A DNA stretch of 64,000 bases from an uncultured Clostridia bacterium (GTDB lineage: Bacteria > Bacillota > Clostridia > Oscillospirales > Oscillospiraceae). Shown piece after piece: positions 28,216 to 64,000 of the stretch. Under the pieces are notes generated by a model, which made no database searches, had not been told where the DNA came from, and saw only the letters and a program-made list of their open reading frames with translations. Where the stretch lies: NCBI GenBank assembly GCA_945876285.1, contig CAMCNO010000014.1, forward strand, positions 1-64,000. Reading direction: 5' to 3'. A program made the position numbers and the translations under genes. The stretch's first letter is position 1; each line of letters begins with the position of its first letter.

Positions 28216-29253
28216 TCACATTGCAGGGCCGATGGGCGGCGCCATATCCTCCGCCATGCACTGTGCGCTGTAGTCAGCAAGGCTCATGCCCGTCTGCTGC
28301 TGGCAGTAGTCCTCCATCTTCGGAAGGAGGAGCGCCTGCTCCTCCTCGCTGAGACAGTACTTGTAGTCCTGCTCGCTGCCATCGCCATGCACCAGGAACA
28401 CTTCCAGCGTGTCGCAGACGCGGCGGTGCTCCATATCGTAGTTGGCATAGATGTTCAGCCAGTCATCATTCTCATCGGTGCAGACGTGTGTGCCGAATAC
28501 TTTGTCGACGTCGAAAGCGGTATCCAGATAGAACTCCAGCAGGTTTTCGTTCTGCTCGATGTCCCCGCTGAAGGAGATGTCCCCGGTTCGGAGCATCCGG
28601 CTGCCGGTGAGATATCCAGGCTCAATTTCCTGGGTGAGCTGTTTTCCATCGAGATGGTTGAGGAACACCTTCCACCGCTCCTCCAACGACGTATAGGCTC
28701 TCTTATTTGCATAGTAGGCGGCGCTGCTGACATCCCTGATTCGGAAACACTGCCAGCCGTCCATGATATGGAGCGCGTTGAAGCGGCCGGAGTCCAGGTC
28801 GATGTCGAATGCCCCGGTCACCCGTCCGGTGTTCTCCAGCCGCTCCGACACATAGTCATTGAACTGCTCACGGGAGATCTTCTCCCCGCGGGAAAACATT
28901 CCGGTGAACCGTGCGGGAGAGTTCTCAGGGGGCTTGCGGAGATAGCTGCGCAGCCGGGCGGCCACCTGGAGCATCTCCAGATTCTCCTCGGCCACGAAGT
29001 AGGTATCGCCGCCGTCCTCCGTCACATGGAACACGGCGAAGCGGCGGGCGGCTTCCTGCGCCTGCTTGTTCTCCTGCTCCTCCTGCCAGATCTCCTGGCT
29101 GATGCGGCTGTACTCCGTGTCCGGGATCAGGGCGTTGATGAGCTCGTCCAGGTGCTCATTGAGCTTGTCCTCCACTGTCTCACCTTTCAGCTGGCGGCTC
29201 AGCGCGTCGTACCATCGCCCGTCGAGCCATAGGGTGATTTCTCTACTGTTCAT
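28216..29253 (-). CDS. Hypothetical ICE cargo protein
   Basis: 345 residues from the ATG at 29253; AAGGAGG is 9 bases before it and the ATG at 29262 is too close to that site. No family recognised. It contains a helical region with KQAQEAARRF and a mixed part with GAFDIDLDSGRFNALHI. The C-terminus ends PPIGPAM, in keeping with Met-containing tails on other ICE proteins. It overlaps the DUF6103-like gene end by 11 bases, so it is coupled to it. Confidence 0.72.
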   Translation of the reverse strand: MNSREITLWLDGRWYDALSRQLKGETVEDKLNEHLDELINALIPDTEYSRISQEIWQEEQENKQAQEAARRFAVFHVTEDGGDTYFVAEENLEMLQVAARLRSYLRKPPENSPARFTGMFSRGEKISREQFNDYVSERLENTGRVTGAFDIDLDSGRFNALHIMDGWQCFRIRDVSSAAYYANKRAYTSLEERWKVFLNHLDGKQLTQEIEPGYLTGSRMLRTGDISFSGDIEQNENLLEFYLDTAFDVDKVFGTHVCTDENDDWLNIYANYDMEHRRVCDTLEVFLVHGDGSEQDYKYCLSEEEQALLLPKMEDYCQQQTGMSLADYSAQCMAEDMAPPIGPAM

Positions 29254-29518
29254 TGCGTGCATCCTCCTTCTGCGCAAGTGGTGCAACAGGACGCGGTTCC
29301 TGCTTCGGCTGGCTTGGCCGCGTCGGACGCTTGGGACGAACTGGCGCGGCTTTTCTGTCCAGAAACTCCCGCACCGGTTCAGGTACAGCCTGTTCATAGA
29401 GCTGCCGCAGGGCCTCCTCCATGCGTTTCTGGACGCTGGAATGCTCCTTCCCCAAATAGAACTCCAGCGCCTCCAGCCGCTCACAGTCGAAGCTGATTGT
29501 GATTTCACTTTTTTCCAT
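29243..29518 (-). CDS. DUF6103-like small ICE protein
   Basis: 91 residues from the ATG at 29518 (GGAGG 8 bases before). The N-terminal SEITISFDCERLEALEFYLG, followed by SVQKRMEEALRQLYEQAVP, resembles the RHH-like DUF6103 proteins of Firmicutes ICEs (by recall). The C-terminal 35 residues are Pro/Arg/Lys-rich and look disordered. Cotranscribed with its neighbours. Confidence 0.7.
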   Translation of the reverse strand: MEKSEITISFDCERLEALEFYLGKEHSSVQKRMEEALRQLYEQAVPEPVREFLDRKAAPVRPKRPTRPSQPKQEPRPVAPLAQKEDARNEQ

Positions 29519-29535
29519 GGTGACAGCCTCCAATC

Positions 29536-30339
29536 TTATTGCATCGTCATTGTCATGGCGGGGCTGTCCGCGACCCGCATTTCGTAGGGACCTCCAGCCC
29601 AGCGGATCCCAGGCAAATTCAGAAAGCAGTCGCCGGCCTCGTTCATGATCGCCAGATCGAACTCTGACGCGTCCACCACACCCATGGGGTTATCCAGCCC
29701 AGCGCCGTTGTAGACCACGCAGAGCGCGGGCCAATCGGTTACCTCTGGATACCGCTCAGAGAGTTTCCTGAACAGCAGTGTATCCGTGACTTCTTCCGGC
29801 GTGGTCACCGCGCCGGATACATAGGCGCTCTCGCAGGGGCCGGTCTCCCAGCCCAGAAGGATACGGGTGAACCGAATGGGCATCCGGGCGGTCATGTGGC
29901 GGAGCATGGACGCCGACTGGTCATAGGCGTCGTGCAGCCCATTTGACACGCCGGCCCACGGCAGATGGGAGGCCATGTCCTCCAGCAAATCCCGGACAAC
30001 GGCAATCTGCCGCCTGCGGTCATCGCCGGCTGCTTCCACCGCAGAGAGGTAGCATTGCAGTTCCCGGATCGTCTCTTTCTGCGATTGAACTGTGGCAGGC
30101 TCTGCGGCAAAGCTGCCGCGGGCCTGTGCCAGCCGCTGGTCGAACCGCTCCATCTGCTTTGGGTCAGGCCGCACTCCATCCAGCCGGGCCATGCCCTGAA
30201 GGATCGCGTCGATCCAGAACCGGCGTGTTTCCGACCAGGGCGGTTCGTCCTGCCGTTGGTGACGCTCGATTCCATTCTGCCGTTCTATGGCATAGGCGGT
30301 GAGGCCCTCTTCTGCAAGAGCAATATTAAAACTTGACAT
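29536..30339 (-). CDS. Hypothetical ICE cargo protein with MTMTMQ tail
   Basis: 267 residues from the ATG at 30339, 8 bases after AAGGAG. The central part is helical (AQARGSFAAEP, LQCYLSAVEAAG) and the C-terminal third has a mixed fold. No function is recognised. It ends SPAMTMTMQ, one of the Met-rich tails shared by unrelated proteins here; its downstream RBS lies after the stop, so the tail is not a by-product of the RBS. An in-frame extension to 30492 reads through a region better explained by a small gene in another frame. Confidence 0.68.
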   Translation of the reverse strand: MSSFNIALAEEGLTAYAIERQNGIERHQRQDEPPWSETRRFWIDAILQGMARLDGVRPDPKQMERFDQRLAQARGSFAAEPATVQSQKETIRELQCYLSAVEAAGDDRRRQIAVVRDLLEDMASHLPWAGVSNGLHDAYDQSASMLRHMTARMPIRFTRILLGWETGPCESAYVSGAVTTPEEVTDTLLFRKLSERYPEVTDWPALCVVYNGAGLDNPMGVVDASEFDLAIMNEAGDCFLNLPGIRWAGGPYEMRVADSPAMTMTMQ

Positions 30340-30341
30340 GG

Positions 30342-30482
30342 TCATCTCTCCTTCATCGTTATCTGGGGAGCATCTGTCTGCGCCTCCGCCTGCTGGGTGT
30401 TCCAGCTTGCCTCGACCTCCCGCAGATAGGCCGGCCAAGTCCTGGTTCTCACCAAACAGGGGGCGCACATGGGGGAAGCCAT
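30342..30482 (-). CDS. Possible 46-residue protein with CAPC motif
   Basis: A short frame from ATG 30482 to TGA 30342 encodes MASPMCAPCLVRT followed by a charged helix (YLREVEASWNTQQAEAQ) and the end ITMKER. It fills the gap between two cargo genes and stops 2 bases before the next start, with the next RBS in its last codons. Its composition looks more natural than the Gly/Pro-rich reading of the same DNA in the neighbouring frame. There is a GGGGGCGG 17 bases upstream, which is too far for comfort. Confidence 0.4.
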   Translation of the reverse strand: MASPMCAPCLVRTRTWPAYLREVEASWNTQQAEAQTDAPQITMKER

Positions 30483-30508
30483 AACTGTCCATGAGTCTGC
30501 CGCCCCCT

Positions 30509-31552
30509 TTATTGAATGAATTTCATGCTCTGAGCCTCCGGCTTATAGGCATCGAGGACAGAGCGGAACTGCTCCAGCCGTTCCGGCTTCACGCCGTCAA
30601 TCACGATCTCCGTGCCGTCCTCCCCGGCGCGGGTCTCCAGAACGCGGGCGTCCAGCACATCGGAGAAGCGTTTTCGCTCCGCACGGGTCAGTTCCTCCTC
30701 CTGTTCAAGGAATATCGGTTCTCCACCCTGGGTGTGGACGAGAGACAGATCCTCGGCCAGCTCGTACTGGAGAATGTCCCGCAGAGAGATATCAGAGTTT
30801 TCCGGCAGGGCTATGACGGCACCCGCGGCCAGCATGGCCTCGACGGTGAGGTATCCGCGTGCCAGGATCTCCTCATTCGGCATTTGCAGGCCGTCGTGAA
30901 GAGTGGAGTAGATACCTTCACTTTCAAAAAGCTCACAGAACACCTCTACCGCGTCATAGAAAAGCCGGGTCTTCTGTTCCTCCGGAAGTTTGGCGAAGTA
31001 GCACGGTTTCTGGCCTTGAATCCTGGGACAGAAACTGGGGTGGTACGCTATGTCGAGCCCTGTATCGGTCAGTACCGCCGAGGCTATCTCTCTGCGGCGT
31101 GTGAGCACATCCAGCAGCATCCCGTCCAGGCCGTTTCCTCTGCGGATCGTGATCCCGGTCCGCTTCTCCAGCTCCTCGAAACTGACGCCCCAGTTCCCGT
31201 TCTCTGTGGCCTCCGTACCCTGCCGGACGATGAAGTCCGCCGCCCGCTCCAGTCTGGCGTTGAGGATATCCCGCATCCCCGGCAGATAGGCGGCGAGGCG
31301 TGGGTAATCATAGCCGTCGGAATAGACCAGCACACCGTCCTCGCTGCCCTGGCCCAGCGCCAGCAGGCAGTGGATGGCTCTGTTGTCGACGAACATCCGG
31401 CTTTTGTTCTCCGCAATGAACGGCTGATTTGTGAGCGGTGTGATCACCAGCGCGGAAAACTCCGCCGTTGATAACTCCACCACCTTCTCGATTTGACAAT
31501 CATCCATCTGAAAATTGTTGGGTCTGTTCAAGAGATTTGCTTTGATTTTCAT
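30509..31552 (-). CDS. Hypothetical ICE cargo protein
   Basis: 347 residues; no family recognised with confidence. A central region contains DGMLLDVLTRRREIASAVL and the C-terminal part SLRDILQYELAEDLSLVH and EEELTRAERKRFSDVLDARV. It ends in EAQSMKFIQ. The ATG at 31552 follows AAAGGAA; a GTG sits one codon earlier. It follows the M23 gene by 21 bases, so it is part of the long leftward operon. Confidence 0.72.
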   Translation of the reverse strand: MKIKANLLNRPNNFQMDDCQIEKVVELSTAEFSALVITPLTNQPFIAENKSRMFVDNRAIHCLLALGQGSEDGVLVYSDGYDYPRLAAYLPGMRDILNARLERAADFIVRQGTEATENGNWGVSFEELEKRTGITIRRGNGLDGMLLDVLTRRREIASAVLTDTGLDIAYHPSFCPRIQGQKPCYFAKLPEEQKTRLFYDAVEVFCELFESEGIYSTLHDGLQMPNEEILARGYLTVEAMLAAGAVIALPENSDISLRDILQYELAEDLSLVHTQGGEPIFLEQEEELTRAERKRFSDVLDARVLETRAGEDGTEIVIDGVKPERLEQFRSVLDAYKPEAQSMKFIQ

Positions 31553-31573
31553 CACATTTTCCTTTCCTCTGCC

Positions 31574-32641
31574 CTATGGCAGATAGCTGCGCGGGTTCGT
31601 CCGCTCCCCGTTGACCCGCACCTCGAAGTGGAGGTGCGGACCGGTGGACCGTCCGGTGGAGCCGGACAGGGCGACCACATCCCCTGCCTCCACCGTCCGG
31701 CCCGCCGAGGCCAGCAGTTGGGAACAGTGGCCGTATAGAGTGGACAGGCCATCGCCGTGGTCGATGATGATATAGTAGCCGTACCCGCCCTGGTTGTAGG
31801 CGGAGACTGTCACCGTCCCCGGCAGGGCGGCGCGGATCGGCGTGCCGGTGGGTACCGCCAGGTCCATGCCGGTATGTCCCCGGCGCTCTCCCGTGATGGG
31901 GTCGATACGATTGCCGAACTCCGAGGTGACCACGCTCCGCCAGTTCTCCCCGATGGGAGAGCAGAAGCCGTCCGCCCCGATGAACGGCACATCCGAACCG
32001 GAAAAGCCGCTGCCGCTCCCGGTGTAGCCATAGCGGATCAGACTGTAGACGCTGTCCGCATTGGCTTGTTGATCATCGGTGGACTCTGTGCCCAGCACGG
32101 CGTAGATGTTCTTGTAGACCTGTGCCAGATCCTCGATAGGTACTGCCACGGTATAGGTTTCTTCTTCCTCTGTGGTAGTTCCATCTTCATTCGCTATGAT
32201 TACGGTGCGGGTGCGCTCCTCATAGGTGACGAAGCAGTCCGCAAACGCCCGGCAGTCCTGGCGGCTGGGACTTTCCGCGCCGAAGTACAGAGCATAAAAG
32301 ATGGCCTTGACACGGATACCGTCAAGGCCATTTTCATCCTCTGCCTGTGCGTTGATTTCAGCGATGGCTCCATCCAGCAAAGCGAAACAGGTCTGCATCT
32401 CTCCGATATAGGCACGGTACTCGTCCGGGAGTTCCGCAGGAATCGTCCCGCCGTAGAAGCACAGCTCCACCACAGAGAGGTTGTGGGAGGCGGAGCCCGA
32501 ACCCAGAGAGCATAAAAAGGCGATGAGCAGGATCACCGGAGAGAGGATGGCCACCAGCACCCAGCCCAGCTTCTTCCGGGTATTTTCATCCGAGAGGGCG
32601 GCGATGGCCGCTTTGACTACCGCGGCGGCTGTGGCGCTCAT
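31574..32641 (-). CDS. Conjugation-associated M23 peptidoglycan endopeptidase
   Basis: The 355-residue protein has an N-terminal membrane segment (WVLVAILSPVILLIAFLCSL) and a C-terminal M23 domain with ligands in RGHTGMDLAVP, TLYGHCSQ and PHLHFEVRVNG. In Gram-positive type IV systems such hydrolases open the wall for the channel (a VirB1-like role). The ATG at 32641 overlaps the stop of the upstream gene (ATGA), which rules out the longer reading to 32764. Confidence 0.9.
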   Translation of the reverse strand: MSATAAAVVKAAIAALSDENTRKKLGWVLVAILSPVILLIAFLCSLGSGSASHNLSVVELCFYGGTIPAELPDEYRAYIGEMQTCFALLDGAIAEINAQAEDENGLDGIRVKAIFYALYFGAESPSRQDCRAFADCFVTYEERTRTVIIANEDGTTTEEEETYTVAVPIEDLAQVYKNIYAVLGTESTDDQQANADSVYSLIRYGYTGSGSGFSGSDVPFIGADGFCSPIGENWRSVVTSEFGNRIDPITGERRGHTGMDLAVPTGTPIRAALPGTVTVSAYNQGGYGYYIIIDHGDGLSTLYGHCSQLLASAGRTVEAGDVVALSGSTGRSTGPHLHFEVRVNGERTNPRSYLP

Positions 32642-34032
32642 AGACTCATGCCGCCCATGGCTGGGCCGTCCTGCTGTGGGCCGCTTTGCAGTTCTGACCA
32701 GTATTCGGACAGCGCATCCATGGTTTCCGCATGGCCGTCGCTCCTGCCGTAGGCCGCATCCCACAGGCGGTACTGCTCCAGATCCATGCCGCGATCCAGC
32801 AGCAGCTTGGCCGTATCCACCGCGTCATTTTGAATGCAGGCAGAGAGGGCGGCATAATCATCCAGTTCCACCGGCATCCCTGCTTTCAAAAGCCGCTCTG
32901 CCATCCATTCCAGATGACCAGAGAGCAAAGGACGGAGCACCTGGGAAATGTGACGGTCCGGCTGCGCCCCCTTTTCCACCAGCACCATGGCAGTTTGGAA
33001 ATCCTGCCGCATGGCGGCCATGGGCAGCAGGCTTGGCGGTGCGGCGGCAATCTGCTCCGGGGTGCATCGCCGGAGCAGGTCTTTGGCGATCTCCTGATGA
33101 TCGTGTCCATAGGCGTACTGGATGACCTCGCCGGGGAGCGTGGGACGCGGCTCTGAGAGCCGGCTTTTCATCTGCTCCACCAGAGTCTGCACCCGCTGGC
33201 TGTCTCCCGTATCCACCGCCCGCTTGCAGGCGGTGAGGTAGGCTTCCGGCGAAATACTCCTTGCGTCGGCCAGCAATGTCAGAACCATCTTCCGTCCAAC
33301 TATCCCCGGCCGTCCAGCCGCCTCCGCCAGCAGACTGTCCGCCTGATTCGGCACCTTGGGGTAAAACTGCTTGAATGTTTCCAACTCGCCGTCCCGGATG
33401 GCCAGTACTGTTTTGTCATAGTCGCTCATGCGCAGGGGCCGCTGACCAGCCGTGTCCATATAGGCGGTGATGCTCCCGGTCATGCGCCGTAGAAGCTGCT
33501 CGGTCTGGGACATGGCAGCCTCCTGTCGTTCCCGCTGCTCTGCCAGCGCCTGGATGATGGTACGCTGTTCCGCGGGATCCAGGTGGACGATCATGTCCTC
33601 TGGCTCCGGTCGTTCCCCCAACCGCATATACCGGGCATAGGTGCCGCCATCCCCGTGGAACGCCTTGGTGATGGCGGAGGAGATGAGAAACATCCGGTCA
33701 AGGTCCGCGCCGGTATCGCCCAGGGTCTTGCCGGTGATGAAGCTCCTGGTGACCGGCTGGCCGTTTTCATACCACTTCAGGTACACATCCAGATAGACGC
33801 CCTCGCTGCCGCCATAGTCGGTGGTACAGAAGATGTCTGCGTCCTGGGGGATCTCCCGGCCATTTTCCCACTCCTGAGCCAGCAGAAAATACTCGTCCGG
33901 CAGATAGCCCATGCCCTCCAGCCGGTATTTCAGTTCCTCGAAAACCTCCTGGGCTGTGCGCTGTCCGGCACACTTCAGCTTGCGGGGGTCTTCCTCGGAA
34001 GGCTCCCATTTGTCCAATTCAATGGTTTTCAT
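32638..34032 (-). CDS. Ankyrin-repeat-like ICE protein with AMGGMSL tail
   Basis: The 464-residue protein has an N-terminal mixed domain and a C-terminal half of helix-pair repeats that look ankyrin-like (FQTAMVLVEKGAQPDRHISQ; MAERLLKAGMPVELDDYAAL; TAKLLLDRGMDLEQYRL). It probably binds another protein. The C-terminus PAMGGMSL belongs to the shared tail group. GGAAAGGAG is 10 bases before the ATG. It is coupled to the M23 gene by overlapping stop and start. Confidence 0.72.
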   Translation of the reverse strand: MKTIELDKWEPSEEDPRKLKCAGQRTAQEVFEELKYRLEGMGYLPDEYFLLAQEWENGREIPQDADIFCTTDYGGSEGVYLDVYLKWYENGQPVTRSFITGKTLGDTGADLDRMFLISSAITKAFHGDGGTYARYMRLGERPEPEDMIVHLDPAEQRTIIQALAEQRERQEAAMSQTEQLLRRMTGSITAYMDTAGQRPLRMSDYDKTVLAIRDGELETFKQFYPKVPNQADSLLAEAAGRPGIVGRKMVLTLLADARSISPEAYLTACKRAVDTGDSQRVQTLVEQMKSRLSEPRPTLPGEVIQYAYGHDHQEIAKDLLRRCTPEQIAAAPPSLLPMAAMRQDFQTAMVLVEKGAQPDRHISQVLRPLLSGHLEWMAERLLKAGMPVELDDYAALSACIQNDAVDTAKLLLDRGMDLEQYRLWDAAYGRSDGHAETMDALSEYWSELQSGPQQDGPAMGGMSL

Positions 34033-34050
34033 CTGATCAATACTCCTTTC

Positions 34051-42514: not shown

Positions 42515-43650
42515 CCCATGGCCATCCCCATCCCCTCTGTATGCGAGAGCTCCGTGGACTGGATCTCCTCCGTGCTGACGCTCCGCACGGGGATGCCGAA
42601 ACGCTCCGCCAGTTCTTTTTCTCCCGTCATGCCGGGGCTGATCCGGTCCCCGCACAGCCAAAGCTCGTCGCACCGTTTCAGCATCCGGTTTCCCATGGCA
42701 ATGCCGAGCTGCCGTTCCTCCGGGGCGCTGTCATCCAGCATCTGGGTGTAGAGCAAACGTGGCGCAAAGGGCGTTACGCCTTGGGAGATGGCATACCGGC
42801 ACGCCTGCCGGGCAAACTGGAGGTTCTGTTCCACATCCCCGGACAAGGGGGAAGCGATGTAGACCACCGCGCCAGGGGCATTTTCCTGTGTCTCTGAGCG
42901 GAAGAGATAGGCCGGGTCGTTGACCACCACACCCTCTCTGCCGAATTCCACCGCGTGTTCATTTGCCGCGGCCCAGTCCAGATATTCCGGATCGGCGGCC
43001 TGGCGGTACACCTCCGGCAGCCATTTTGCCGGGATCCTGAGCAGTCCGGAGGTGTGTTCCAGCTCCTTGTCCATGGTGTAGGCGACAGCTTCCCGAACAG
43101 CGGGGAGCAGAGGGCCCAAGTCCTCCGGGGTGTGATCCCAGAAGCTGATCTCCCGCAGGACCACATCCTCATACCGCTCCCAGCTCCCGCTGTCATCCTC
43201 GTTCCACACATAGTCGGCTGAGGTGATGGTCACACCCTCATCATTGCAGTTGATCCAAATAGTCTTATCCAGTTCCGGGAGCCGCACGGCCAGCGTCCCC
43301 ACCATGCATCCGCCTCCGGTGTTGCCATAGATACGGTCTATGACTGCATACCGCATGACTCCGGGGTCTGGCGTTGTATCAAGAGCCTTGATCAATTCAG
43401 CCTGAACACTCCGCTCTATATCATGGCCGCCTGGATACTCCACACATTGGTACTTTACAGCGGGATGACGGTTGAGACGGAGCGCCTCCATATCCCAAAG
43501 CTTCTGTTTCGCGCTCCCACACTCAGTAAAGAACAGGCGCTGGCCGTTCTCAGATAAAAAGCCGGAGAGCCCCGCCATGGGACTCTCCGGCCTCGCTTCC
43601 ACCCAGATCGCGTAGATTTTAGGTGGACGGTTTTCTTTTCCTTCTGTCAT
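42511..43650 (-). CDS. ICE cargo protein with C-terminal DUF4406-like domain
   Basis: 379 residues from the ATG at 43650 (AGGAGGAG 8 bases before). The N-terminal 250 residues are unrecognised. The C-terminal part (VVYIASPLSGDVEQNLQFAR, then DELWLCGDRISPGMTGE) resembles DUF4406/deoxyribosyltransferase-like proteins, which act on nucleotides. The end EGMGMAMG belongs to the Met-rich tail group, although here the G-rich codons could also serve as the RBS of the next gene. Confidence 0.75.
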   Translation of the reverse strand: MTEGKENRPPKIYAIWVEARPESPMAGLSGFLSENGQRLFFTECGSAKQKLWDMEALRLNRHPAVKYQCVEYPGGHDIERSVQAELIKALDTTPDPGVMRYAVIDRIYGNTGGGCMVGTLAVRLPELDKTIWINCNDEGVTITSADYVWNEDDSGSWERYEDVVLREISFWDHTPEDLGPLLPAVREAVAYTMDKELEHTSGLLRIPAKWLPEVYRQAADPEYLDWAAANEHAVEFGREGVVVNDPAYLFRSETQENAPGAVVYIASPLSGDVEQNLQFARQACRYAISQGVTPFAPRLLYTQMLDDSAPEERQLGIAMGNRMLKRCDELWLCGDRISPGMTGEKELAERFGIPVRSVSTEEIQSTELSHTEGMGMAMG

Positions 43651-50705: not shown

Positions 50706-50710
50706 GATTA

Positions 50711-53555: not shown

Positions 53556-53939
53556 TTACATCGTCATGCCCATGTCCTGGGCGGGGGTAGCCTGCGCGGT
53601 CTGCTGCCGCTGGGGGAGCTGGGTCAGGGCCTGCTGGTAGGCGTCCAGCACCGCCTGATGGAACTGCTGGTGGAACTCCTGGGTGCAAGGGAAACAGATA
53701 TCCCTGTACTCACCGCCTGACTTGTAGCTGGGCATGGAGACGAAGGGCCCTTTCTCGCTGTCTATCACCTTCACGCCCCGGATGGCGAAGCAGCCGTTGA
53801 GATTGACCGAGGCGTTGGCCAGGACCGGGCCGTCCGTGCGCAGGGTGTTGATCTTCACATCCACCTTCATGGGGAGCTGCTCCCGCTGGGCAGGCTGGCC
53901 CTGCGCGGAAACAGGGGCGGGTGCGCTTGCTTTTTTCAT
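53556..53939 (-). CDS. spoVG: SpoVG-family regulator
   Basis: A 127-residue protein with the SpoVG core (MKVDVKINTLRTDGPVLANA; GCFAIRGVKVIDSEKGPFVS; MPSYKSGGEYRDICFP). SpoVG binds nucleic acid and affects envelope, virulence and division genes. An N-terminal Ala/Pro/Gln segment and a Gln-rich C-terminus ending DMGMTM are additions not found in chromosomal SpoVG. RBS AGGAGGAA. The tail is separate from the next RBS, which lies after the stop. Confidence 0.88.
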   Translation of the reverse strand: MKKASAPAPVSAQGQPAQREQLPMKVDVKINTLRTDGPVLANASVNLNGCFAIRGVKVIDSEKGPFVSMPSYKSGGEYRDICFPCTQEFHQQFHQAVLDAYQQALTQLPQRQQTAQATPAQDMGMTM

Positions 53940-56101: not shown

Positions 56102-57121
56102 TTACTGCTGTTCCATCGTCATCCCCGCCTCCTCCGGGGCGCTGCGCTCATAGATAAACTCCCGGCTGTTCCGGGTGATGTAGGCGCTTTCAGCGGCGGT
56201 CAGCACATAGCCCGCTTCCTCCAGCAGATCCGCCGCGTACCCCTCCAGATCGATGCAGCCGGAGGAGAGCAGTTCCTCAGCCACCCCCGCCTCCAGCAGC
56301 TTTCGCCTGCCAAATTCCTTCAGGCTGTCACAGGGGATCCACTCATAGCAGTGGAGATTCTGGATGATGTCCAGGGCAAAGCGCAGGTCATGGCAGTTCT
56401 CAAATTCCAGGGCAGCGGCAAACCTCTCCAGAAAGCGGGGCGTTCCCTGGCCCTGTTCCTCCAGCGCATAGCCCAGGTCGCTGCCGTCGTTGACCAGCTC
56501 CAGAGCGTCTGCATATTGCTCCATCAGGTCCCCCAACTGGGGCCGGCCGCACCGGGCGTCCATCAGGACACAGTCCTCCAGACTTCGGACATTCAGCTCG
56601 TCCAGGGCCAGGGCCACCTCGTCCGGCTGGCCGCTTACGGCGGAGTGATCCGGCAGGCGCAGCCATACCCCCTCCGGTATTGTGGGGGAGGCCAGCTTCA
56701 CCTTGACGCTCCAGCCGTCATCCTCCGGAATGAGCCCCTGGCCGGTGTAGCGGAGAGGGACGGGGCCGGACGGATAGGCCACATAGCAGCTCCCGATGAA
56801 CAGGCCGGGGTGTCGGTCCTCATACATCATGCCGATCCGTTCCAGATCCGCGTAGTACATAGTGCGTTCCGGCAGATGGGCTTCGTGCCGGAGATAAAAG
56901 CTCCCCAGCTGTGCGTAGCTTCCCGCGGGAAAGCACACCCCATAGTCCTCCATGGAGAGCAGCTGATTGATGGCCTCCGCCATGGATTCCGGTCGCGCGC
57001 TGATGACAATGGCGCTGACAATGTGCTTTTCCTTCTTGCTCAATGTGGACAACCGCTCCGCCAGCCAGTCCCGTTCCTGTTCTGTTCCCGGAAGTATCAT
57101 CAGTTCCTCAAATTCCCACAT
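56102..57121 (-). CDS. ardA: ArdA-like antirestriction protein 1 (double domain), AGMTMEQQ tail
   Basis: The 339-residue protein resembles ArdA, the DNA mimic that blocks type I restriction enzymes. The C-terminal ArdA pattern occurs in LGSFYLRHE with YYADLERIGMMYEDRHPG and CYVAYPSG, and again more weakly in the second half (FGRRKLLEAG; LEGYAADLLEEAGYVLT). It is strongly acidic. It ends in EEAGMTMEQQ. Its start overlaps the stop of the next paralogue by one base (TAATG), with GGAG before. Confidence 0.7.
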   Translation of the reverse strand: MWEFEELMILPGTEQERDWLAERLSTLSKKEKHIVSAIVISARPESMAEAINQLLSMEDYGVCFPAGSYAQLGSFYLRHEAHLPERTMYYADLERIGMMYEDRHPGLFIGSCYVAYPSGPVPLRYTGQGLIPEDDGWSVKVKLASPTIPEGVWLRLPDHSAVSGQPDEVALALDELNVRSLEDCVLMDARCGRPQLGDLMEQYADALELVNDGSDLGYALEEQGQGTPRFLERFAAALEFENCHDLRFALDIIQNLHCYEWIPCDSLKEFGRRKLLEAGVAEELLSSGCIDLEGYAADLLEEAGYVLTAAESAYITRNSREFIYERSAPEEAGMTMEQQ

Positions 57122-58266
57122 TACATCATCTCCATTCCGCCCCGCTGGGGCTGTTCTGCCATGACCTGGCCGTCCCGCCTCTCTACCAGGCCGTACTCAG
57201 TCACTGTACTGCCGTACTTCTGGAGCAGAGCCTCCCCATACCGCCAAAGGGTCACATGGGGGAGCAGAAGCTCCGCCGCTTCGTCACCAAGGATGATCCG
57301 AAGTTCATTCTCCGCCACCTCCGGCATGGTGCGCACATCCGGCTCCACCATATATTCGTCCAGCTGTCCGGCCAGCCGGGACGCCTCATTGATATCTGAG
57401 GGATCCTCTGCTATGAGGATTGCTTTGTACTTTGTCAGTTCCTCCGGTCCAAGCCGCGCCAGATGCTGCGCCAGCCGGTTGACATGGGTGATGCTGACGG
57501 CCTCGTCCACCAGATCCTTCAGGGCGGGTGCCGCGCAGTCCAGACAGCGGAATCGGATATTCTGCCACGCTTCCGCTCCAATGGACTTTAGCTTGTTATC
57601 AATCATCAGGTGTGACGCTGGCAGCGGCAGCGAAACATTGTGTTCGCCATTTGTCAGTTCCATCAGAACCGCATAGTCCGGCCTGCGGAGGCGGAGGTCA
57701 AGGGTATCATAGACCTGCTCCAAGTCTGAGTCCTGCGTCACATAACCATGGCTGGTGAATACGCCGCCCTCATCCATGCGGGCCTTTCTGCCCAGCATTT
57801 CAAAATCCAGCATTTGAAACACGCTGTCAGGGATGGCGTCAAGCTCCGGCATAAAACCGTTTTCCGCATAAAACCTGCCGAGCTGGGAGTCGTTCTGCAC
57901 CTCACTCAGCACATGGCAGCAGTCCGTGCTGTAGGCCAGGTCGATGATCGTGGATATCTGGATCGGACCATACTTTTTGGAGACCTCCACCTGGAACAGC
58001 CCCTCGAACGCGGCTTTCTGCCGTTCATCCAGCCGCGCCAGCCTGTCTGCCAGTGCATTGAGCTGAAATAGATCGCATTCATCCGTCAGATGAATATGGA
58101 GATACGGAAAGTCGTTATACTCGAGGATATCCCAGTCCGGCTTGCCGTCCATGGGCATTTGCAGCCGCTCCAGCGCGTCCAGCAGTTCATAGGGGGCGGC
58201 GGGAAGCTCCAGTTCGCAGTAACAGCCGTTGCCTCCAGACAGTTCTACCCGAAACACCTTATTCAA
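57121..58266 (-). CDS. ardA: ArdA-like antirestriction protein 2 (double domain), GGMEMM tail
   Basis: 381 acidic residues. Each half has the ArdA order: a beta-rich start (CYCELELPAAPYELLDALER), a helix (LNALADRLARLDERQKAAFE) and an end like YAENGFMPELDA with MLGRKARMDEGGVFTSHGYV. The C-terminal half repeats this (VNRLAQHLARLGPEELTKYK; HVTLWRYGEALLQKYGST). It should sequester restriction enzymes in the recipient. The GGMEMM end overlaps the RBS and start of the next gene. Confidence 0.75.
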   Translation of the reverse strand: MNKVFRVELSGGNGCYCELELPAAPYELLDALERLQMPMDGKPDWDILEYNDFPYLHIHLTDECDLFQLNALADRLARLDERQKAAFEGLFQVEVSKKYGPIQISTIIDLAYSTDCCHVLSEVQNDSQLGRFYAENGFMPELDAIPDSVFQMLDFEMLGRKARMDEGGVFTSHGYVTQDSDLEQVYDTLDLRLRRPDYAVLMELTNGEHNVSLPLPASHLMIDNKLKSIGAEAWQNIRFRCLDCAAPALKDLVDEAVSITHVNRLAQHLARLGPEELTKYKAILIAEDPSDINEASRLAGQLDEYMVEPDVRTMPEVAENELRIILGDEAAELLLPHVTLWRYGEALLQKYGSTVTEYGLVERRDGQVMAEQPQRGGMEMM

Positions 58267-59245
58267 GCGTCAACCCTCCTGTCTTCGGCTGAAAATCTTC
58301 CAGATACTTGGCAGGGTCAGCACCGGGACATCCCCAGCCGCACATACTGCCCACCTCCATGGCCTTGCGCTGCCACATGGTCACGCCAAGCTGCTCATTG
58401 AGCTGGTCCGCCAGCTCCACATTCCGTTCCTTGTCACCGGTGTCCCAGTCGGAGGGGTAGTAACCGGTCTCGCCCCGCTTGATGCAGATCAATTCGCCGG
58501 TGGTCAGGATGGTGGAGAAGCACAGCTCCGGCAATCCCTCCGCAATTTTAGGACTGAACCGCTCCTCCTCGGTCTGGATGCTCCAGTTGTTCCAATTCCA
58601 GAGATGGACATACAACTCACCGCCATCTGCCTCGATCTCCCGCTGCTCAAAGCCCTCACCCCAGCCGTCTGAAGCCTGTCCGGAGACATACTCCTTGAGC
58701 GTGTCCAGTTCTTCCGGGGTGAGGGTGCCGACCACCCGACACTCCGCCACGCCCCAAAGCTGGCCGTTCCGCTCCTCAGCAGTGAATACCACAGACCTGA
58801 CCTTGTCATCCACACTGTCATTTTTGCCGTACCAGTGCATGATCCCGCGCTCGGTTTCCTCCGGCATCCGGTTCTTCACCAATGCGGCAAGGATATCCCC
58901 TTCATAGGTCCGCAGCTCCCTGCCGTCCAACGGAGTACCTTCCTCCTCCATATCGCCCCATTCGTTCCGCTCATAGAGGTCAGCGGTCAGGGGCATATAG
59001 AGTTTCATGGTGGTGGGTTCGGGCGGCAGGACGGTAAAGCTGTCCTCACCAATGACCAGCGACAATGTTCTTCCGTTGTCCCACCTCATGTGGAAGTGGC
59101 CGGCGTCGTCGATGAAGTCCAGCGTTCCCATGGCTCCAGAAGAAATTGGATCTGGATCGGTTTTCATCTCTCTGAGCTTGATTCGGCTGCCCGCGGGGTA
59201 CTGCTCCCGCAGGAAAGCCAGCCACTCTTTCGGAATACTGTTCAT
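58259..59245 (-). CDS. DUF4314-domain ICE cargo protein
   Basis: 328 residues. The first 75 match DUF4314 (EQYPAGSRIKLREM, GTLDFIDDAGHFHMRWDNG), a small beta-barrel domain of unknown role on ICEs and phages. The remaining part, with many Trp residues (YVHLWNWNNWSIQ), is unrecognised. The RBS GGGGGA and ATG overlap the preceding gene's end. The C-terminus is PKTGGLTLE. Confidence 0.8.
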   Translation of the reverse strand: MNSIPKEWLAFLREQYPAGSRIKLREMKTDPDPISSGAMGTLDFIDDAGHFHMRWDNGRTLSLVIGEDSFTVLPPEPTTMKLYMPLTADLYERNEWGDMEEEGTPLDGRELRTYEGDILAALVKNRMPEETERGIMHWYGKNDSVDDKVRSVVFTAEERNGQLWGVAECRVVGTLTPEELDTLKEYVSGQASDGWGEGFEQREIEADGGELYVHLWNWNNWSIQTEEERFSPKIAEGLPELCFSTILTTGELICIKRGETGYYPSDWDTGDKERNVELADQLNEQLGVTMWQRKAMEVGSMCGWGCPGADPAKYLEDFQPKTGGLTLE

Positions 59246-60261
59246 GACAATCCCCCCATCGTCATGCCCTCATCGGGCGTATTTTGATAGTCCTCCAACA
59301 GGCGGGGGTTTTCCTCGCCGTAGAGGTCGTACAGGATATCGTCCACCTGCTTGCGGACTGTGGGGTCATCGGTCAGCGTTTCATACCGGAAGCCGGTGGC
59401 CGGATGGTCTGGCAGCTCCTCCCGGATGCACTGGAGATATGCCTCCGCATCCGTGTACTCCACCTGTTCGCCGCTGGCAAAGGTCACCCGCCCCACCACC
59501 GGCTTATCTGTCATATTCTGTCTCTGGACACGGAGGTCAAAGGCGGTCAGATAGGCTTGATACTCACCGGCTACGGGGTTGCACCGCAGGCAGTAGCGAT
59601 AGTTCTCTGTCTCCACGATATAACCGTAGTTCTGTACCCAGCCGCCGCTGATCTCTCCGCCATGGCCCCGGCAGTAGCCAGCCATGGCGGAGAAGTTCTT
59701 CAGGACGTTATTTCGCAGCTCATCCACCACATCCTGCAATTCGGACTTGAATTCCGGGGAGTTCAGCTCCTCCGGGCCTCTCGGCCACCAGGTGTGCCAG
59801 AACTCCGTGCCGCTCCGTCCGAAATCCATGCGGACATAGCCGACGCAGCCGAATTTCGCATCTTCCTCCGGACTCATGGCGTAGAAAAAGCCCGCTTCCT
59901 CGGGTGAAGCGGGCCGAATGGCAAATGTTTGATTGTGAAAGGGATATTCCAGGCTGTTGTTCCGGCAGTAGTCTCGCAGTGTCATGGTCTCTCCAAGCAG
60001 GAGGAACTGCCTGTTCACTCTGCGGGATATTGTGTCGGCCCGTTTCAGGGGAACGGGGGAAAGGACAGAGCCAATGGGATTTATACGGGCGCGGTCTGAC
60101 AGTGCGATGGGCTTTTTGGCATTGCGGACGCTGCCTCTCAGTTCGTAGTAATACCAGCCTTCCGGGACATCCTCCCGCGGGATACGCTGGGGAGTGAACA
60201 GTACCGGCCTGCCGAACAATATGGCTGATCGCAGGGGATCGGTTTTGATATTGATACTCAT
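59242..60261 (-). CDS. LPD28-like ICE cargo protein, GMTMGGLS tail
   Basis: The 339-residue protein starts with a segment like the LPD28 domain of polyvalent proteins (ILFGRPVLFTPQRI, WYYYELRGSVRN); the middle has WYY/WHTWWPRGPEE aromatic patches; the C-terminal part contains KPVVGRVTFASGEQVEYTDA. Polyvalent proteins are thought to enter the recipient with the DNA. The tail EGMTMGGLS combines both tail motifs; GGLS also encodes the RBS of the next gene. RBS AAGGAGG. Confidence 0.76.
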   Translation of the reverse strand: MSINIKTDPLRSAILFGRPVLFTPQRIPREDVPEGWYYYELRGSVRNAKKPIALSDRARINPIGSVLSPVPLKRADTISRRVNRQFLLLGETMTLRDYCRNNSLEYPFHNQTFAIRPASPEEAGFFYAMSPEEDAKFGCVGYVRMDFGRSGTEFWHTWWPRGPEELNSPEFKSELQDVVDELRNNVLKNFSAMAGYCRGHGGEISGGWVQNYGYIVETENYRYCLRCNPVAGEYQAYLTAFDLRVQRQNMTDKPVVGRVTFASGEQVEYTDAEAYLQCIREELPDHPATGFRYETLTDDPTVRKQVDDILYDLYGEENPRLLEDYQNTPDEGMTMGGLS

Positions 60262-60339
60262 AGCGTGCCTCCTTCGCTTTTTGGTAACGGGAACAATACC
60301 ACGCTGATTCTCGAAAGTCCATACTTATTTTCCTTAACA

Positions 60340-60420: not shown

Positions 60421-60440
60421 TTTTGACCTCCTATTATAGA

Positions 60441-61556
60441 CTACATGCTTTGCTGGGACTGCGTCTGATTTGGAAAGGGCGTACTGATGCGTCGCACAAA
60501 GCCAAATTCGGTTTGCTGGACATCGTCCTCCTCCATGTAAGCCTCACCGAGCCGCTCGAAATCCGTGTAGAGTTCAAGAATATCGAGAACGTCTTCATCG
60601 ACGCCGAATCGCCGCAGAACCTGCTTTCCATATTCCTCCTGGTCGTCAGGGACACGCTCATAATCGTCCAGCTCCAGCGCCAGATCCAGAGCGGCGGGAA
60701 AGTCCTCCGGCTGCTCCGCTGACAGGACGGCAAGGTATTTCAGCAGCTCGCCGTCTGTCTGTCCCATCTCCCGCACGGCCATCGCCAGCTCGTTGGCGGA
60801 CTCCACGCTGACGCAGTCCACAGGAATATGTTCTTCCAGATAAGGGACGAGAAATTCAACCGCTTCGATCCTGGCCTCCGCGAAGTCCGTGATCCCAAGC
60901 TGTGCTTTTGCGGCGTCCAACTCTGTTTCCTCTGCGGGAAGATGCAGAACGCAGACTGTCCCGGTGGTTTCCAGCTGGAGCCGGATCACCGAATCCTCCT
61001 TTTGTTCAGGCTCTGCTGACTGTTTGCGCAGGACATAGCCGCTGTAGGTATAAGCGCCGCCTCGGTCGGCATAATACTCTGCGCCGATCTTGGCAAAATC
61101 CAAATACGGCCATGCTTTTTCCGGAAACCGGGGATCGCCGTGGAGCAGTCCGGCAGCAGCCACATATTTACCAAGATCGGTATCCGAGCTCACATTGGGG
61201 ATGATGGTATATTCCTCCAGCGACTCTGAGACACGAAGCACATCATCCAGCCCGTTGACGCTTTCGGCATCCAACGCTCCGGCGAAGATATCCCGCTGAC
61301 GCTTGCTCATCCCGCCGATCCTTTCGGCCAGCGTGTTGAGCTTTTGCATGTCCTCTCTGCTGTTCAGGTCCGCATAGCGGACATACTGCCCGATATTGGC
61401 AACCGGGCTTTTGACATCCAGGATTCTGACATCCCCGGCATAGCGGCTGACTGTATCCAGCAGGGCGAACGCCTCGCCGATCTCCGCGGGTGTTGTGGGA
61501 AAGCGCAGGCGGACGCCCTCCTGGTTATCCCCGCGGGTCAGATGCAGTTCGATCAT
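60441..61556 (-). CDS. ardA: ArdA-like antirestriction protein 3 (double domain)
   Basis: 371 acidic residues with two ArdA-like units. Unit one: VRLRFPTTPAEIGEAFALLD, LNTLAERIGGMSKRQRD, LGKYVAAAGLL and LDFAKIGAEYYADRGGAYTY. Unit two: VLHLPAEETELDAAKAQLG, YGKQVLRRFGVDED and TDFERLGEAYMEEDD. It ends in SQSQQSM. Its ATG overlaps the stop of paralogue 4, with the RBS GGGAGG in that gene's last codons. Confidence 0.76.
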   Translation of the reverse strand: MIELHLTRGDNQEGVRLRFPTTPAEIGEAFALLDTVSRYAGDVRILDVKSPVANIGQYVRYADLNSREDMQKLNTLAERIGGMSKRQRDIFAGALDAESVNGLDDVLRVSESLEEYTIIPNVSSDTDLGKYVAAAGLLHGDPRFPEKAWPYLDFAKIGAEYYADRGGAYTYSGYVLRKQSAEPEQKEDSVIRLQLETTGTVCVLHLPAEETELDAAKAQLGITDFAEARIEAVEFLVPYLEEHIPVDCVSVESANELAMAVREMGQTDGELLKYLAVLSAEQPEDFPAALDLALELDDYERVPDDQEEYGKQVLRRFGVDEDVLDILELYTDFERLGEAYMEEDDVQQTEFGFVRRISTPFPNQTQSQQSM

Positions 61557-62761
61557 GACAAGCCTCCCATCTGCGGGCCCTGCTCCATCTGCTCTGTTGG
61601 GATGTTCCGGGCCACAATCTCGCTGATCTCCTGCGCTGTCCCCAGGTAGGCCACATAGCCCCGGTCTCCAAAAAGCCCGCCCTCCTCCCGGATACGGCGC
61701 TCTCCGTAGCTCTGGTAGTTGATATAGTCCTCCAGATTTGGGTCCACCTCAAAATGGCCGGACTCCTGGATCATATAACGCCCATATTCCTCCGCGGTGC
61801 TGATGTCCGGCACCACCGTAAACTCGTGAAGATTTTCCGCCAGGGCCAGGATCTCCTCCGGCGTCTGGGGCCAGACTGTATCGAAAACAGTATGGAAGTT
61901 CTCCATTGCCTGCCCGTCGAACTTTCGCAGGTGCCGGGTCAGGGCGTTCAGGGCAGCCAGATGCTCATTCAGAGGATATTCACGCTCAAAGACGCTCCGG
62001 ACCGCGTCGCTGAGTTCGGCGGTATCCAAGACTGCAATACACTGCTCCGGCCTGTCCGCGCCCAGCCGCCGCACCGCGCGGGCGATCTTGCTCTCCGCGC
62101 AGGGGAAATAGAGCGTTTCCTGCTGCTCCGGCTTTCCGATCACCGAAAGCGTTACAGAGGCCGCGCAGTCCTCGTAGAAAAACTCCGGGAGATGGCGGCC
62201 GTCATAGATACTGGACAGCCGCATGCCGTTGTCATACACCACGCCATAGGGTGTGACTGTCCCGCCTCCGCCCTCAATGAGCAGCAGCGCAGTCTCATAT
62301 CCGTCCAGAGCGTCCAGTTCTTCCGTCCTGGCGCAGCCGCCATGCAGGTTCATGTAGTGGTCACGGCCTATGGCCTCCAGATCGGAGAAGTCCGTGATCA
62401 CCGTGGCCTGCTGGCAGCAGAAGGTCAGGTTGATAAAGTCTGTCATATCCCGAAGATCCAGCTTTTCCGCCATGGCCTGAAACTGCGCGGCCTCACCAAC
62501 ATCAAAGCTGTCCAGCCGCTTTGCCAGGTAGTCCAGCTCGTCCAGATTGACGGTGAGCATCTCCATTCGCTTTAACACGGGAAAACTGCTGCTGATCTCC
62601 ATGACCTGACAATCCCGGTGGACGGGATCGCCGATCTCCAGTGCGGATAGAAGCTCAACACAGTGGTCATATTCCTCGTTGGGGATGGGGAATGGGATGG
62701 TGGCCACGCCATATTCAGGATGCTCCTGATTGGCCAACACCGCCTGCACCAAGGGAGCCAT
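61553..62761 (-). CDS. ardA: ArdA-like antirestriction protein 4 (double domain), QMGGLS tail
   Basis: The 402-residue protein is the clearest ArdA relative: its C-terminal unit has EEYGRYMIQESGHFEVDPNL and YINYQSYGERRIREEGGLF, which align by eye with Tn916 ArdA (NYIDYQAYGR). The N-terminal unit has IPFPIPNEEYDHCVELLSAL, LDELDYLAKRLDSF and GRDHYMNLHGGCARTEEL. GGGAGGTGA precedes the ATG. It ends QMGGLS, overlapping the RBS for the next gene. Confidence 0.85.
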   Translation of the reverse strand: MAPLVQAVLANQEHPEYGVATIPFPIPNEEYDHCVELLSALEIGDPVHRDCQVMEISSSFPVLKRMEMLTVNLDELDYLAKRLDSFDVGEAAQFQAMAEKLDLRDMTDFINLTFCCQQATVITDFSDLEAIGRDHYMNLHGGCARTEELDALDGYETALLLIEGGGGTVTPYGVVYDNGMRLSSIYDGRHLPEFFYEDCAASVTLSVIGKPEQQETLYFPCAESKIARAVRRLGADRPEQCIAVLDTAELSDAVRSVFEREYPLNEHLAALNALTRHLRKFDGQAMENFHTVFDTVWPQTPEEILALAENLHEFTVVPDISTAEEYGRYMIQESGHFEVDPNLEDYINYQSYGERRIREEGGLFGDRGYVAYLGTAQEISEIVARNIPTEQMEQGPQMGGLS

Positions 62762-63471
62762 CAGACCTCACCTCCCGTTCCGCCGATGGTGAACATGGCC
62801 TTGCCGTAGTGGGCGATCAGCATCGCGTCCAGGATCAGCGTCAGGGCGGTATCATCCACCAGCTCTCGGTCGCATAGTTCCTGGAATGAGATGTACTGGT
62901 GGTTTTGATAGAGCCCCTTTGCCGCCTGATAGAGCACATATTCCTGCTCACTCATCGCCCGCACGGTGTCCCACCCGCTGAGGCGGATGCTCCAGAGGCC
63001 AAAGATATTCGGTACGGCGCGGCAGAGCGATTCTGTGGCGGTCAGCAGGTACATGGTAGCCAGACGGCGCCGGCCTGTGTCATCGCCATGATGACGGAGC
63101 AGATAGGGATAATAGAACAGGAAGCGGGAGGTGTGGGCGGCGTCATAGTAGGCGACTGCTTTCTTGTTGGAGAGCAGCTCCGCGATCCGCTCTCCCAGCC
63201 TGCCGCTCTGCCAGTTCCGATAATAGTCAGCCGCCAGGGAGGAATAGGTGACCGCCCCCGCCTCCGCACGCTCCTCGATCCAAGGGCATACCGGCATGGT
63301 GCATTGCTTTCTTCTGTATTTGGTGCAGTGCTTGCAGGCCACATCCTCGGGCCGGTAGCGAAACCGGCAGAGGATCATTTGGCCTCCGCCGCGAGGGGAG
63401 AAGTGGGGCGGCGTCATCATCTGCCGCTCCAGCCCCGCCAGAGGGGTGTCTCGCAGGAAGTATTTCGTCAC
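62761..63471 (-). CDS. Hypothetical ICE protein with Cys-rich zinc-finger-like motif
   Basis: 236 residues from GTG 63471 (GGAAAGGA 7 bases before). The N-terminal quarter has CKHC-x7-C-x4-C (CKHCTKYRRKQCTMPVC), a likely zinc site, followed by a mainly helical domain (YLLTATESLCRAVPNIFG). No family recognised. The longer reading to 63534 runs through a terminator and was dropped. It is first in the ArdA operon. Confidence 0.74.
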   Translation of the reverse strand: MTKYFLRDTPLAGLERQMMTPPHFSPRGGGQMILCRFRYRPEDVACKHCTKYRRKQCTMPVCPWIEERAEAGAVTYSSLAADYYRNWQSGRLGERIAELLSNKKAVAYYDAAHTSRFLFYYPYLLRHHGDDTGRRRLATMYLLTATESLCRAVPNIFGLWSIRLSGWDTVRAMSEQEYVLYQAAKGLYQNHQYISFQELCDRELVDDTALTLILDAMLIAHYGKAMFTIGGTGGEV

Positions 63472-63512
63472 GTGCTGTCCTTTCCGGATGGGACCTTTAT
63501 CCCGAAAGGGCG

Positions 63513-63549
63513 GCAAAAAAGGCCGGCGTCCCAAACGGGATACGGCCTT
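63513..63549 (-). terminator. Rho-independent terminator after the window-end gene
   Basis: Arms AAGGCCG (63519-63525) and CGGCCTT (63543-63549), with inner pairing TCCC/GGGA, followed on the minus strand by TTTTTTGCCG. The sequence beyond it to the next RBS resembles that at 56010-56050. Confidence 0.85.
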
Positions 63550-63568
63550 GTCCTGTGTTGATGATGAT

Positions 63569-64000
63569 TTAGAATTGCTGGGTCATGCCCTGATATTCCG
63601 TATCTTCTGCTGCCTCCAATTCCTTCTGATTTGACTGGCTGACCAGCTCTGCCAGGGCAGGAACCGCACATTCGATCTGCGCCGCCACGCCCTCCAGCAG
63701 CTTTTGGCGTTCCGCGGTGATGGGATAATGATTCTCCAGCGTTTCGTGGACGCAGCGGTAGACCTCCGCAAGCTGCTCCTTAGAAAAAAGCTGGTGCTTG
63801 TCCAGCAGGCCGGAGCGGATGGCAAAGTCCCGCTTTGCCGCCTGATAGTCATTTCCAGCATAATGACCTTGCCACAGGCTGGTACGCTCATTGATCCACG
63901 CCCAGGTGGTGAATTGAACGCCGTGTTTGCCGGGGAGGGCGGCAAGCACAACATCATTGAACTCCGCCAGTACTTGATATGGTTCGTGCAGGCTGTCCGC
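63569..64000 (-). CDS. Hypothetical ICE protein, 5' end beyond window, QGMTQQF tail
   Basis: The open frame continues to the right edge, so only the last 143 residues are seen; GTG 63949 is internal. The visible part has EFNDVVLAALPGKHGVQF, TTWAWINERTSLWQGHY and helices with Cys-containing AAQIECAVPALAELV. No family recognised. It ends in EYQGMTQQF, part of the tail group. Confidence 0.7.
   Translation of the reverse strand, partial: ADSLHEPYQVLAEFNDVVLAALPGKHGVQFTTWAWINERTSLWQGHYAGNDYQAAKRDFAIRSGLLDKHQLFSKEQLAEVYRCVHETLENHYPITAERQKLLEGVAAQIECAVPALAELVSQSNQKELEAAEDTEYQGMTQQF

Follow-up and report, generated by a model that had tools for sequence, protein, structure and literature searches.

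Why should proteins of quite different fold, encoded by one mobile element, end in nearly the same few residues? The question is raised by an integrative and conjugative element (ICE) in a 64,000-nucleotide stretch of DNA (the window) from an uncultured Clostridia bacterium of the Oscillospiraceae (assembly GCA_945876285.1, contig CAMCNO010000014.1, positions 1 to 64,000; contig C14 of a 94-contig, 2.29 Mb genome). The ICE spans from about 22 kb to the end of the window and encodes a VirD4-type coupling protein, a MobL relaxase, a Toprim primase, a VirB4-like ATPase, TrbL and a DUF3852/TrbC pilin-like protein, along with a SpaA adhesin, a sortase, SpoVG, a D12 methylase, DUF4314 and LPD28 proteins, and three ArdA-domain proteins. 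A preliminary description of this sequence had listed nine short C-terminal tails rich in Met and Gly, and all nine were found at the corresponding stop codons on the minus strand. Weaker related ends were also seen in genes 58259 (TGGLTLE), 23970 (TQQMG), 60441 (QQSM) and 28216 (IGPAM). Comparison of related elements leads us to propose that the tail is probably a C-terminal recruitment signal for one class of VirD4/type IV secretion system (T4SS), which would mark relaxases, primase and anti-defence proteins for transfer.

The tail and the families that carry it

Related loci were collected by a search with the DUF4314 protein; the best 80 of 329 relatives in a species collection, each at most about 21 kb, were combined with five from viral contigs, with the caveat that all loci were picked through one tailed protein. 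Those with an identical copy of the window DUF4314 protein are from records under the names Clostridia bacterium, Dysosmobacter and Flavonifractor. Our own gene caller identified 1780 genes in the 85 loci and the window, and label propagation on blastp hits yielded 494 families from proteins of at least 60 aa with a sufficient coding score. The control consisted of 651 proteins from 39 stretches of two genomes (G118 and G000). Two patterns were counted: the motif of the preliminary description ([GA]MTM or MGG[LM]S within the final 12 residues), which was fixed before counting, and a loose regular expression (M.M, GGM, MGG, GM.[MLF] or MM in the last 10 residues), which was set after seeing examples. 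Locus proteins were counted as unique by their last 40 residues.

The fixed motif was found in 6/62 window proteins and 77/1267 locus proteins against 0/651 controls (Fisher p 3e-7 and 1e-14, respectively, versus control), in line with the enrichment anticipated by the preliminary description. The loose expression matched 8/41 proteins in the ICE part of the window and 0/21 in the remainder, 372/1267 in the loci, and 6/651 in the control. A chromosomal background as the source of the tails was rejected on the two control counts. The tail is restricted to certain families. Among unique members, it is present in DUF4314 (54/63), LPD28 (42/49), SpoVG (21/23), three ArdA groups (45/48, 43/51 and 13/28), the family of gene 56102 (27/39), and two families named DUF3849 (family 7, 32/45) and YodL (family 18, 8/9), whose Pfam names rest on one member each. 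It is absent from the D12 methylase (0/46), sortase (0/26), DUF3852 (0/10), TrbL (0/9) and VirB4 (0/4) families as well as those of window genes 55674 (0/44), 52626 (0/28), 54333 (0/21) and 62761 (0/13). This split, together with the lack of control matches to the fixed motif, bears out the idea that unrelated proteins share similar short tails. Most families are consistently tailed or untailed, so the tails are conserved among homologues, and their non-conservation, which the preliminary description had named as grounds for giving up its proposal, was not what we found. Across 13 tailed families, the loose expression matched 317/391 C-termini versus 126/10023 internal 10-residue windows.

Some relatives lie outside the pattern. 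The short 174-aa ArdA proteins of L299 and L300, which presumably resemble the Tn916 protein, have no tail, nor does that of L301; ArdA proteins of three more distant genomes have weak Q/M ends; and the SpoVG of L290, a homologue from elsewhere, ends GGDGED. In the A. colihominis ICEs (L180-L187), several short proteins near the pilin-like gene have weaker ends of an acidic-plus-hydrophobic kind (GPKLEM, VPELTM, GPVLTM). The loose expression misses such ends, so that more proteins may be tagged than were counted.

The usual ending is a Q/E/P-rich linker followed by a short Met/Gly motif such as GGMTL, GMTMGGM or MTM. Composition was profiled over 408 proteins from 17 tail families, with positions counted back from the stop. 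Gln plus Glu make up 29-38% of residues at -8 to -15 versus 10-13% in the control, Pro reaches 22% at -9, Gly 34-39% at -6 and -5, and Met 51% at -4 and about one third at -2 and -1. Leu, Phe, Ile and Val are depleted from -5 to -14, and Lys/Arg account for 0-6% across the last eight positions (control, 12-21%), with a mean charge over the last 20 residues of -1.93 (control, -0.17). The DUF4314 family illustrates the layout: a conserved domain with a PGADP end, a variable linker, and mostly [MT]GGM[TS][LF][GEA]. The tail is constant although the stretch that links it to the domain differs between proteins, and a DUF4314 protein that lacks the last conserved segment (L043:828) still ends QLGGMVLG.

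The tails do not depend on a downstream gene. Among genes of the 17 tail families, 122/137 that overlap the next gene are tailed, as are 77/104 whose next same-strand start is at least 40 nt away and 26/31 that no gene on their strand follows. Since the families were chosen for having tails, these rates cannot serve as a test in themselves; what counts is that they remain high when no gene follows. The same three classes gave 11/236, 18/277 and 1/218 for other families in the loci and 1/108, 4/223 and 1/195 for the control. The tails are therefore not by-products of ribosome sites, and their survival in 103/135 genes with the next gene far or absent runs counter to the other outcome named in advance as fatal, a presence confined to overlapping ribosome-binding sites. 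The remark that some GGLS and GGMEMM ends lie over the next gene's ribosome-binding site or start was correct for those genes, yet these ends are members of the same tail family. The claim that the codons are also alike held in part: Thr codons follow gene-body usage (ACA/ACC/ACG/ACT 19/41/29/11% in tails, 18/44/27/10% in bodies), and Gly codons are shifted to GGA (46% versus 18%), as expected if, in coupled genes, the GG codons double as Shine-Dalgarno sites. Synonymous variety is large, with 13 encodings of GGM in 177 cases and 27 of GGMT in 56, and a DNA-level repeat was rejected on this variety and the Thr usage. Together, the codon data and the independence from ribosome sites point to selection on the peptide, with the DNA doubly used in operons.

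Features of the ICE and its tails in the window. All lie on the minus strand; endings run up to the stop codon, and fractions are unique family members with the loose expression.
Feature	Ending	Position	Basis or family	Remark
VirD4-type coupling protein	no tail	22076..23923	homology	proposed tail reader
Toprim/DUF3991 primase-like protein	PVTQQMG	23970..24893	Pfam	between relaxase and VirD4
ICE MobL relaxase	GHKADDYEERMQQI (ERMQQI)	24909..26753	homology	degenerate tail
Protein without known function	SPAMTMTMQ	29536..29568		sister element L037 ends alike
Ankyrin-like protein	GPAMGGMSL	32638..32670	Pfam match under cut-off	Gly codons GGC GGC, no Shine-Dalgarno site
DUF7768 protein adjoining TrbL	HTEGMGMAMG	42511..42543		sister element L036 ends alike
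SpoVG-domain protein	AQDMGMTM	53556..53588	21/23	Shine-Dalgarno site of next gene past the stop
Family without known function	EEAGMTMEQQ	56102..56134	27/39	next gene about 95 nt off in identical copy L056
ArdA-domain protein	QRGGMEMM	57121..57153	45/48	
DUF4314 protein	KTGGLTLE	58259..58291	54/63	
LPD28-domain protein	DEGMTMGGLS	59242..59274	42/49	final codons also next gene's Shine-Dalgarno site and start
ArdA-domain protein	SQQSM (weak)	60441..60473	mixed, 13/28	
ArdA-domain protein	EQGPQMGGLS	61553..61585	43/51	GGA GGC TTG TCA TGA overlap next start
Family without known function	TEYQGMTQQF	63569..63601	mixed, 10/38	no operon gene at coupling distance past stop

In both A. colihominis ICEs, genes with the length and place of 32638 (matched on these, not by alignment) end SPMKGMNL and SPMGGMSL. 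The next gene is far or absent in 31/39 members of the 56102 family. In the sister element L036 (G118:C12), from which part of the window sequence between 45498 and 57121 appears to be missing, residues 1-225 of the 56102 protein match inside a 730-aa open frame with a SpaA adhesin-like end (RTGY), so that the tail of the 56102 protein is lost there. A second, divergent partial copy of the element lies on the 9.4 kb contig G000:C58 (L002, L035), with tails such as APAMGGMTMK and TMSMKMK. The T4SS region also encodes, at 34850-35950, an S-layer homology domain protein with a sub-threshold Pfam ATLF match. No NCBIfam family was found for ten window proteins, a PDB sequence search with the ArdA protein 57121 gave no match, and one with 53556 gave SpoVG structures only.

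Relaxases, primases and one VirD4 class

MobL relaxases were located in 12 of the genomes behind the loci, and 20 stretches away from this VirD4 family were read. L236 and L237 held repeat matches only and were dropped (n=18), weaker or fragmentary MobL places being outside the count. Of these relaxases, 17/18 have a canonical tail by the loose expression and 18/18 a Met in the last three residues, with 13 distinct endings including DDHEEEQNQGGMVMGGM, DDHEEQQPEMTM, DDHEEYQGPSMSM and DDHEETPRQDMGGMTMGW; for one of them, L225, an ICE of this class lies on the opposite strand at a distance of about 33 kb. The canonical tail on MobL relaxases apart from this VirD4 class is a new finding. When 18 window proteins were compared by blastp with ten neighbourhoods of 20-60 kb, which cover 11 of the 18 MobL and a 250-aa MobL piece ending GMTMGGM, MobL alone was matched and no VirB4, TrbL, VirD4 or pilin was found, unrelated T4SS types not being searched for. 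This absence of window-type T4SS genes near 11 tailed MobL is as expected of mobilizable elements. Within 9 kb of these relaxases, the relaxase is the sole really tailed protein (one integrase end fits the expression and is not tail-like), and the next gene starts at least 69 nt past the relaxase stop. Pfam analysis of two neighbourhoods indicated tyrosine integrases in both and an HTH_17 protein in one. As a set, the neighbourhoods would fit integrative mobilizable elements.

The segment preceding the MobL tail, GHKxDDH, was followed further with a DNA pattern that gave 22 hits over five genomes and none with the reversed control; by coordinates, 17 of them mark the ends of MobL genes and 5 fall in frames of PF03432 relaxases, the end being read for two of the five. 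PF03432 itself was found at 62 places in ten genomes, giving 30 loci and, after removal of four copies (G118 and G160 hold the same places), 26 ends. Four of the 26 are Met-type (DDHEEEQTWQQTM, DDHTNEQTQTWQQTM, DDHEEEPTWQQTMS and SHSQSMSM); one of the four fits the loose expression, and three follow a DDH segment like that of MobL. Of the other 22, Arg is the last residue in 13 and Glu in 4. In 25 of 173 plasmid records, we found one full-length MobL, one untailed MobP3 relaxase and otherwise repeat matches. The MobL-like protein, 37.5% identical, is on a Subdoligranulum variabile plasmid (L268, OY725859.1, 8097 bases) and ends NDFEPQM. That plasmid is typed as non-mobilizable in the plasmid database, and other proteins on it end ESVPAPGLSL and EEEVRMGFC.

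The tails occur together with one VirD4 family. In 11/12 tail loci tested, with contigs paired by their length, the contig of the locus carries a VirD4 69-100% identical to that of the window, in the same orientation and no more than about 66 kb off. Seven further ICE stretches with a VirD4 60-66% identical and a GC content of 31-54% gave 35/217 matches for ICE-side genes (at most 8 kb from recognised ICE genes) versus 1/78 elsewhere, a few of the 35 being membrane ends rather than tails and one short stretch giving 0/11; linkers there are more acidic (DEDAGFCMKM, ESESPSMSM, DEAPVMRM). Primase relatives of this class have a Met in the last five residues in 12/15 readable ends, among them ITMRME, GPAMTME, QQEMG and EGGMSLAL. 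In another ICE class, present in two of the same genomes and with a VirD4 27% identical, 3/96 proteins in the stretches read matched the expression and none was tail-like; its primase homologue (30% identity) ends KEDWSR, without a tail.

This other ICE class, also read in related genomes (L049, L050, L055, L188-L192; VirD4 27% identical where tested), has an ending of its own: 33/62 of its proteins are Arg-final versus 56/651 in the control, a count made after the trait had been noticed and including some homologous copies among the 62. Both CGN and AGR codons are used, and 10/27 proteins are Arg-final when the next gene is far. The Arg end may be a tag of this class; a partial ribosome-site effect is also possible.

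What the tail may signal

How the tails arose can be considered before what they do. Several GGLS and GGMEMM ends, and GGM ends directly before the stop, cover a GGAGG-like sequence together with an ATGA or TAATG junction, and the GGA share of tail Gly codons is raised, just as it should be if the tails were by-products of the next gene's Shine-Dalgarno site and overlapping start. As a full cause this was rejected, leaving some codons to do double duty, and we regard it as very improbable: tails are kept where the next gene is distant or missing, among the remaining families of these loci, genes overlapping the next one are hardly ever tailed (11/236), a ribosome site needs neither Met nor Thr, versions with GGC GGC exist, and the tailed MobL of the neighbourhoods read have no gene close behind them. 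The notion that the tails are 3' gene ends shared through inheritance or recombination, without a function of their own, seems less credible still. The GHKxDDH segment followed by a Met-type end on both MobL and some PF03432 relaxases speaks for it, since 3' ends must there have moved or converged; against it are the constancy of the tail behind variable linkers, the variation of synonymous codons, and the DUF4314 protein that kept its tail when the last conserved segment was gone.

Two further explanations grant the peptide a function. Short hydrophobic C-termini are frequent protease signals, so the tail could be a tag for stability or degradation, such as a protease-adaptor signal, which sets when early-transfer proteins are turned over. 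The many unrelated accessory proteins with tails would suit such a role; we consider it unlikely because the relaxase is the sole tailed protein in the MobL neighbourhoods, a better fit to recruitment than to turnover, and because the other ICE class, in the stretches read from two of the same genomes, is untailed though it shares their housekeeping proteases. Alternatively, the tail might dock proteins within the donor, on a partner common to them (relaxosome, adaptor, membrane or pole), with no passage into the recipient. Relaxases and primase carrying the tail would be natural clients, and docking and export look alike under the present data. Pure docking nevertheless appears improbable to us, as the channel parts are untailed and as ArdA and YodL domains, both in this set, are discussed as early-phase effectors of conjugative elements in the available part of one survey (PMC5512222).

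Recruitment to the T4SS, the explanation we favour, has several observations to answer. The most pointed is that the MobL relaxases of the ICEs themselves, obligatory substrates, have canonical tails in 0/17 unique ends; 11/17 have a Met in the last three residues (PEMQL, YQQTM, TMSL, RMN and similar). It is possible that a tailed partner, such as the neighbouring primase, recruits these relaxases, or that a looser signal suffices. Four more distant genomes with this VirD4 have MobL without a Met end (G337, HGLKP; G298, AIGLKF; G311, HGLKQ; G289, NPQFKG), accessory proteins being tailed in three of the four ICEs, and primase ends fit the loose expression in only 3/15 cases (counted by eye). 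L062 keeps its tails, yet its genome has no VirD4 of this family (E 1e-30). The tail is found in a minority or about half of the 60441 (13/28), 63569 (10/38) and 53967 (1/15) families, and the SpoVG proteins of two G031 loci lack it where four other SpoVGs have it. The control comes from two genomes only, and members of a family are related, so that counts are not independent events. All of these points weigh against a recruitment signal.

Even so, carriers that include kinds either known to be transferred or proposed as such, non-carriers among channel proteins and those expected to act in the donor, and tailed relaxases outside the ICEs make T4SS recruitment the best explanation. Primase, for one, is transferred during conjugation. 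In the model we propose, a flexible, negatively charged linker (Q/E/P- or D/E-rich) would display a terminal motif of small and sulphur-containing or hydrophobic residues, approximately [G/P]-G-M-[T/S/E/Q]-[M/L/F]-(G or GGM). The motif would be bound by the VirD4-type coupling protein of one clostridial ICE class, directly or via an adaptor, and tagged proteins would reach the channel, enter the recipient along with the DNA strand and act there. The cargo would include the relaxases of hitch-hiking elements, primase, ArdA antirestriction proteins, and LPD28, YodL, DUF3849, DUF4314 and SpoVG proteins. The untailed proteins are channel builders or expected donor workers: VirB4, TrbL, the pilin-like DUF3852, sortase, the SpaA adhesin and the D12 methylase. 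The C-terminal type IV secretion or VirD4-docking signal suggested in the preliminary description thereby gains support from sequence comparison.

A broader proposal, which we judge evenly balanced, is that in Clostridia a protein kit (primase, antirestriction, YodL, LPD28 and SpoVG proteins and many families without a name) under one class-specific C-terminal tag is exported by the coupling protein and that mobilizable elements copy the tag to their relaxases and so hijack the channel. Since a second ICE class is perhaps Arg-tagged, the tail could be a barcode of the T4SS that carries it. To our knowledge, the proteins that travel with DNA in Gram-positive conjugation are largely unknown. If a 10-residue tag marks them, the list of co-transferred proteins could be read from sequence, many unnamed proteins would become candidate anti-defence factors of the first minutes, and mobilizable elements could be linked to the helper that moves them. 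The motif is testable for a coupling protein spread over gut Oscillospiraceae and related families.

Comparison with known systems

In titles and abstract openings of the openly licensed literature, no description of a methionine-rich tail motif in conjugation was found, and T4SS effectors have no common consensus signal according to the available part of one review (PMC10025392). Like other C-terminal T4SS substrate signals, the tail closes several unrelated proteins that belong to a single system. The Dot/Icm signal of Legionella with its E-block, as outlined in that review, is also located at the extreme C-terminus of many unrelated proteins and has a Glu-rich block and small or polar residues. 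The peak of combined Gln and Glu at -8 to -15 and the acidic end reproduce the E-block trait, a likeness of form only. Unlike Dot/Icm, the tail has a Met/Gly end motif and Gln and Pro besides Glu, and it is found on Gram-positive mobile-element proteins including relaxases rather than on eukaryote-directed effectors. The C-terminal Arg signal of Agrobacterium VirB/D4 (PMC10025392, same portion) is likewise common to unrelated substrates of one VirB/D4 system, but its hallmark is positive charge; here Lys/Arg are depleted, the mean charge is negative, and no cluster of positive charge was seen near the ends of the tail families.

Co-transfer of plasmid proteins is best compared with F-like pED208, from which the plasmid-encoded maintenance proteins ParA, ParB1, ParB2, SSB, PsiA and PsiB reach recipients with or beside the DNA (PMC8406263); unlike the present set, no common C-terminal motif is described for them in the accessible part of that paper. 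Polyvalent proteins (Iyer et al. 2017, PMC5512222) share with our tailed set the ArdA, YodL and LPD-type domains of conjugative elements, seen as early-phase effectors. There the domains are fused in multidomain proteins and no such tail is named in the text available from that work, whereas in the present set they stand as individual proteins, every one of which is tailed. Finally, the translocation signals TSA and TSB of TraI and those of TrwC (PMC8406263, PMC10025392, each in part) recruit a relaxase to the coupling protein, as the tail may do. Those signals are internal and, according to the review, usually larger, while the tail is about 10 residues long, lies at the very end, and is carried by relaxases and accessory proteins alike.

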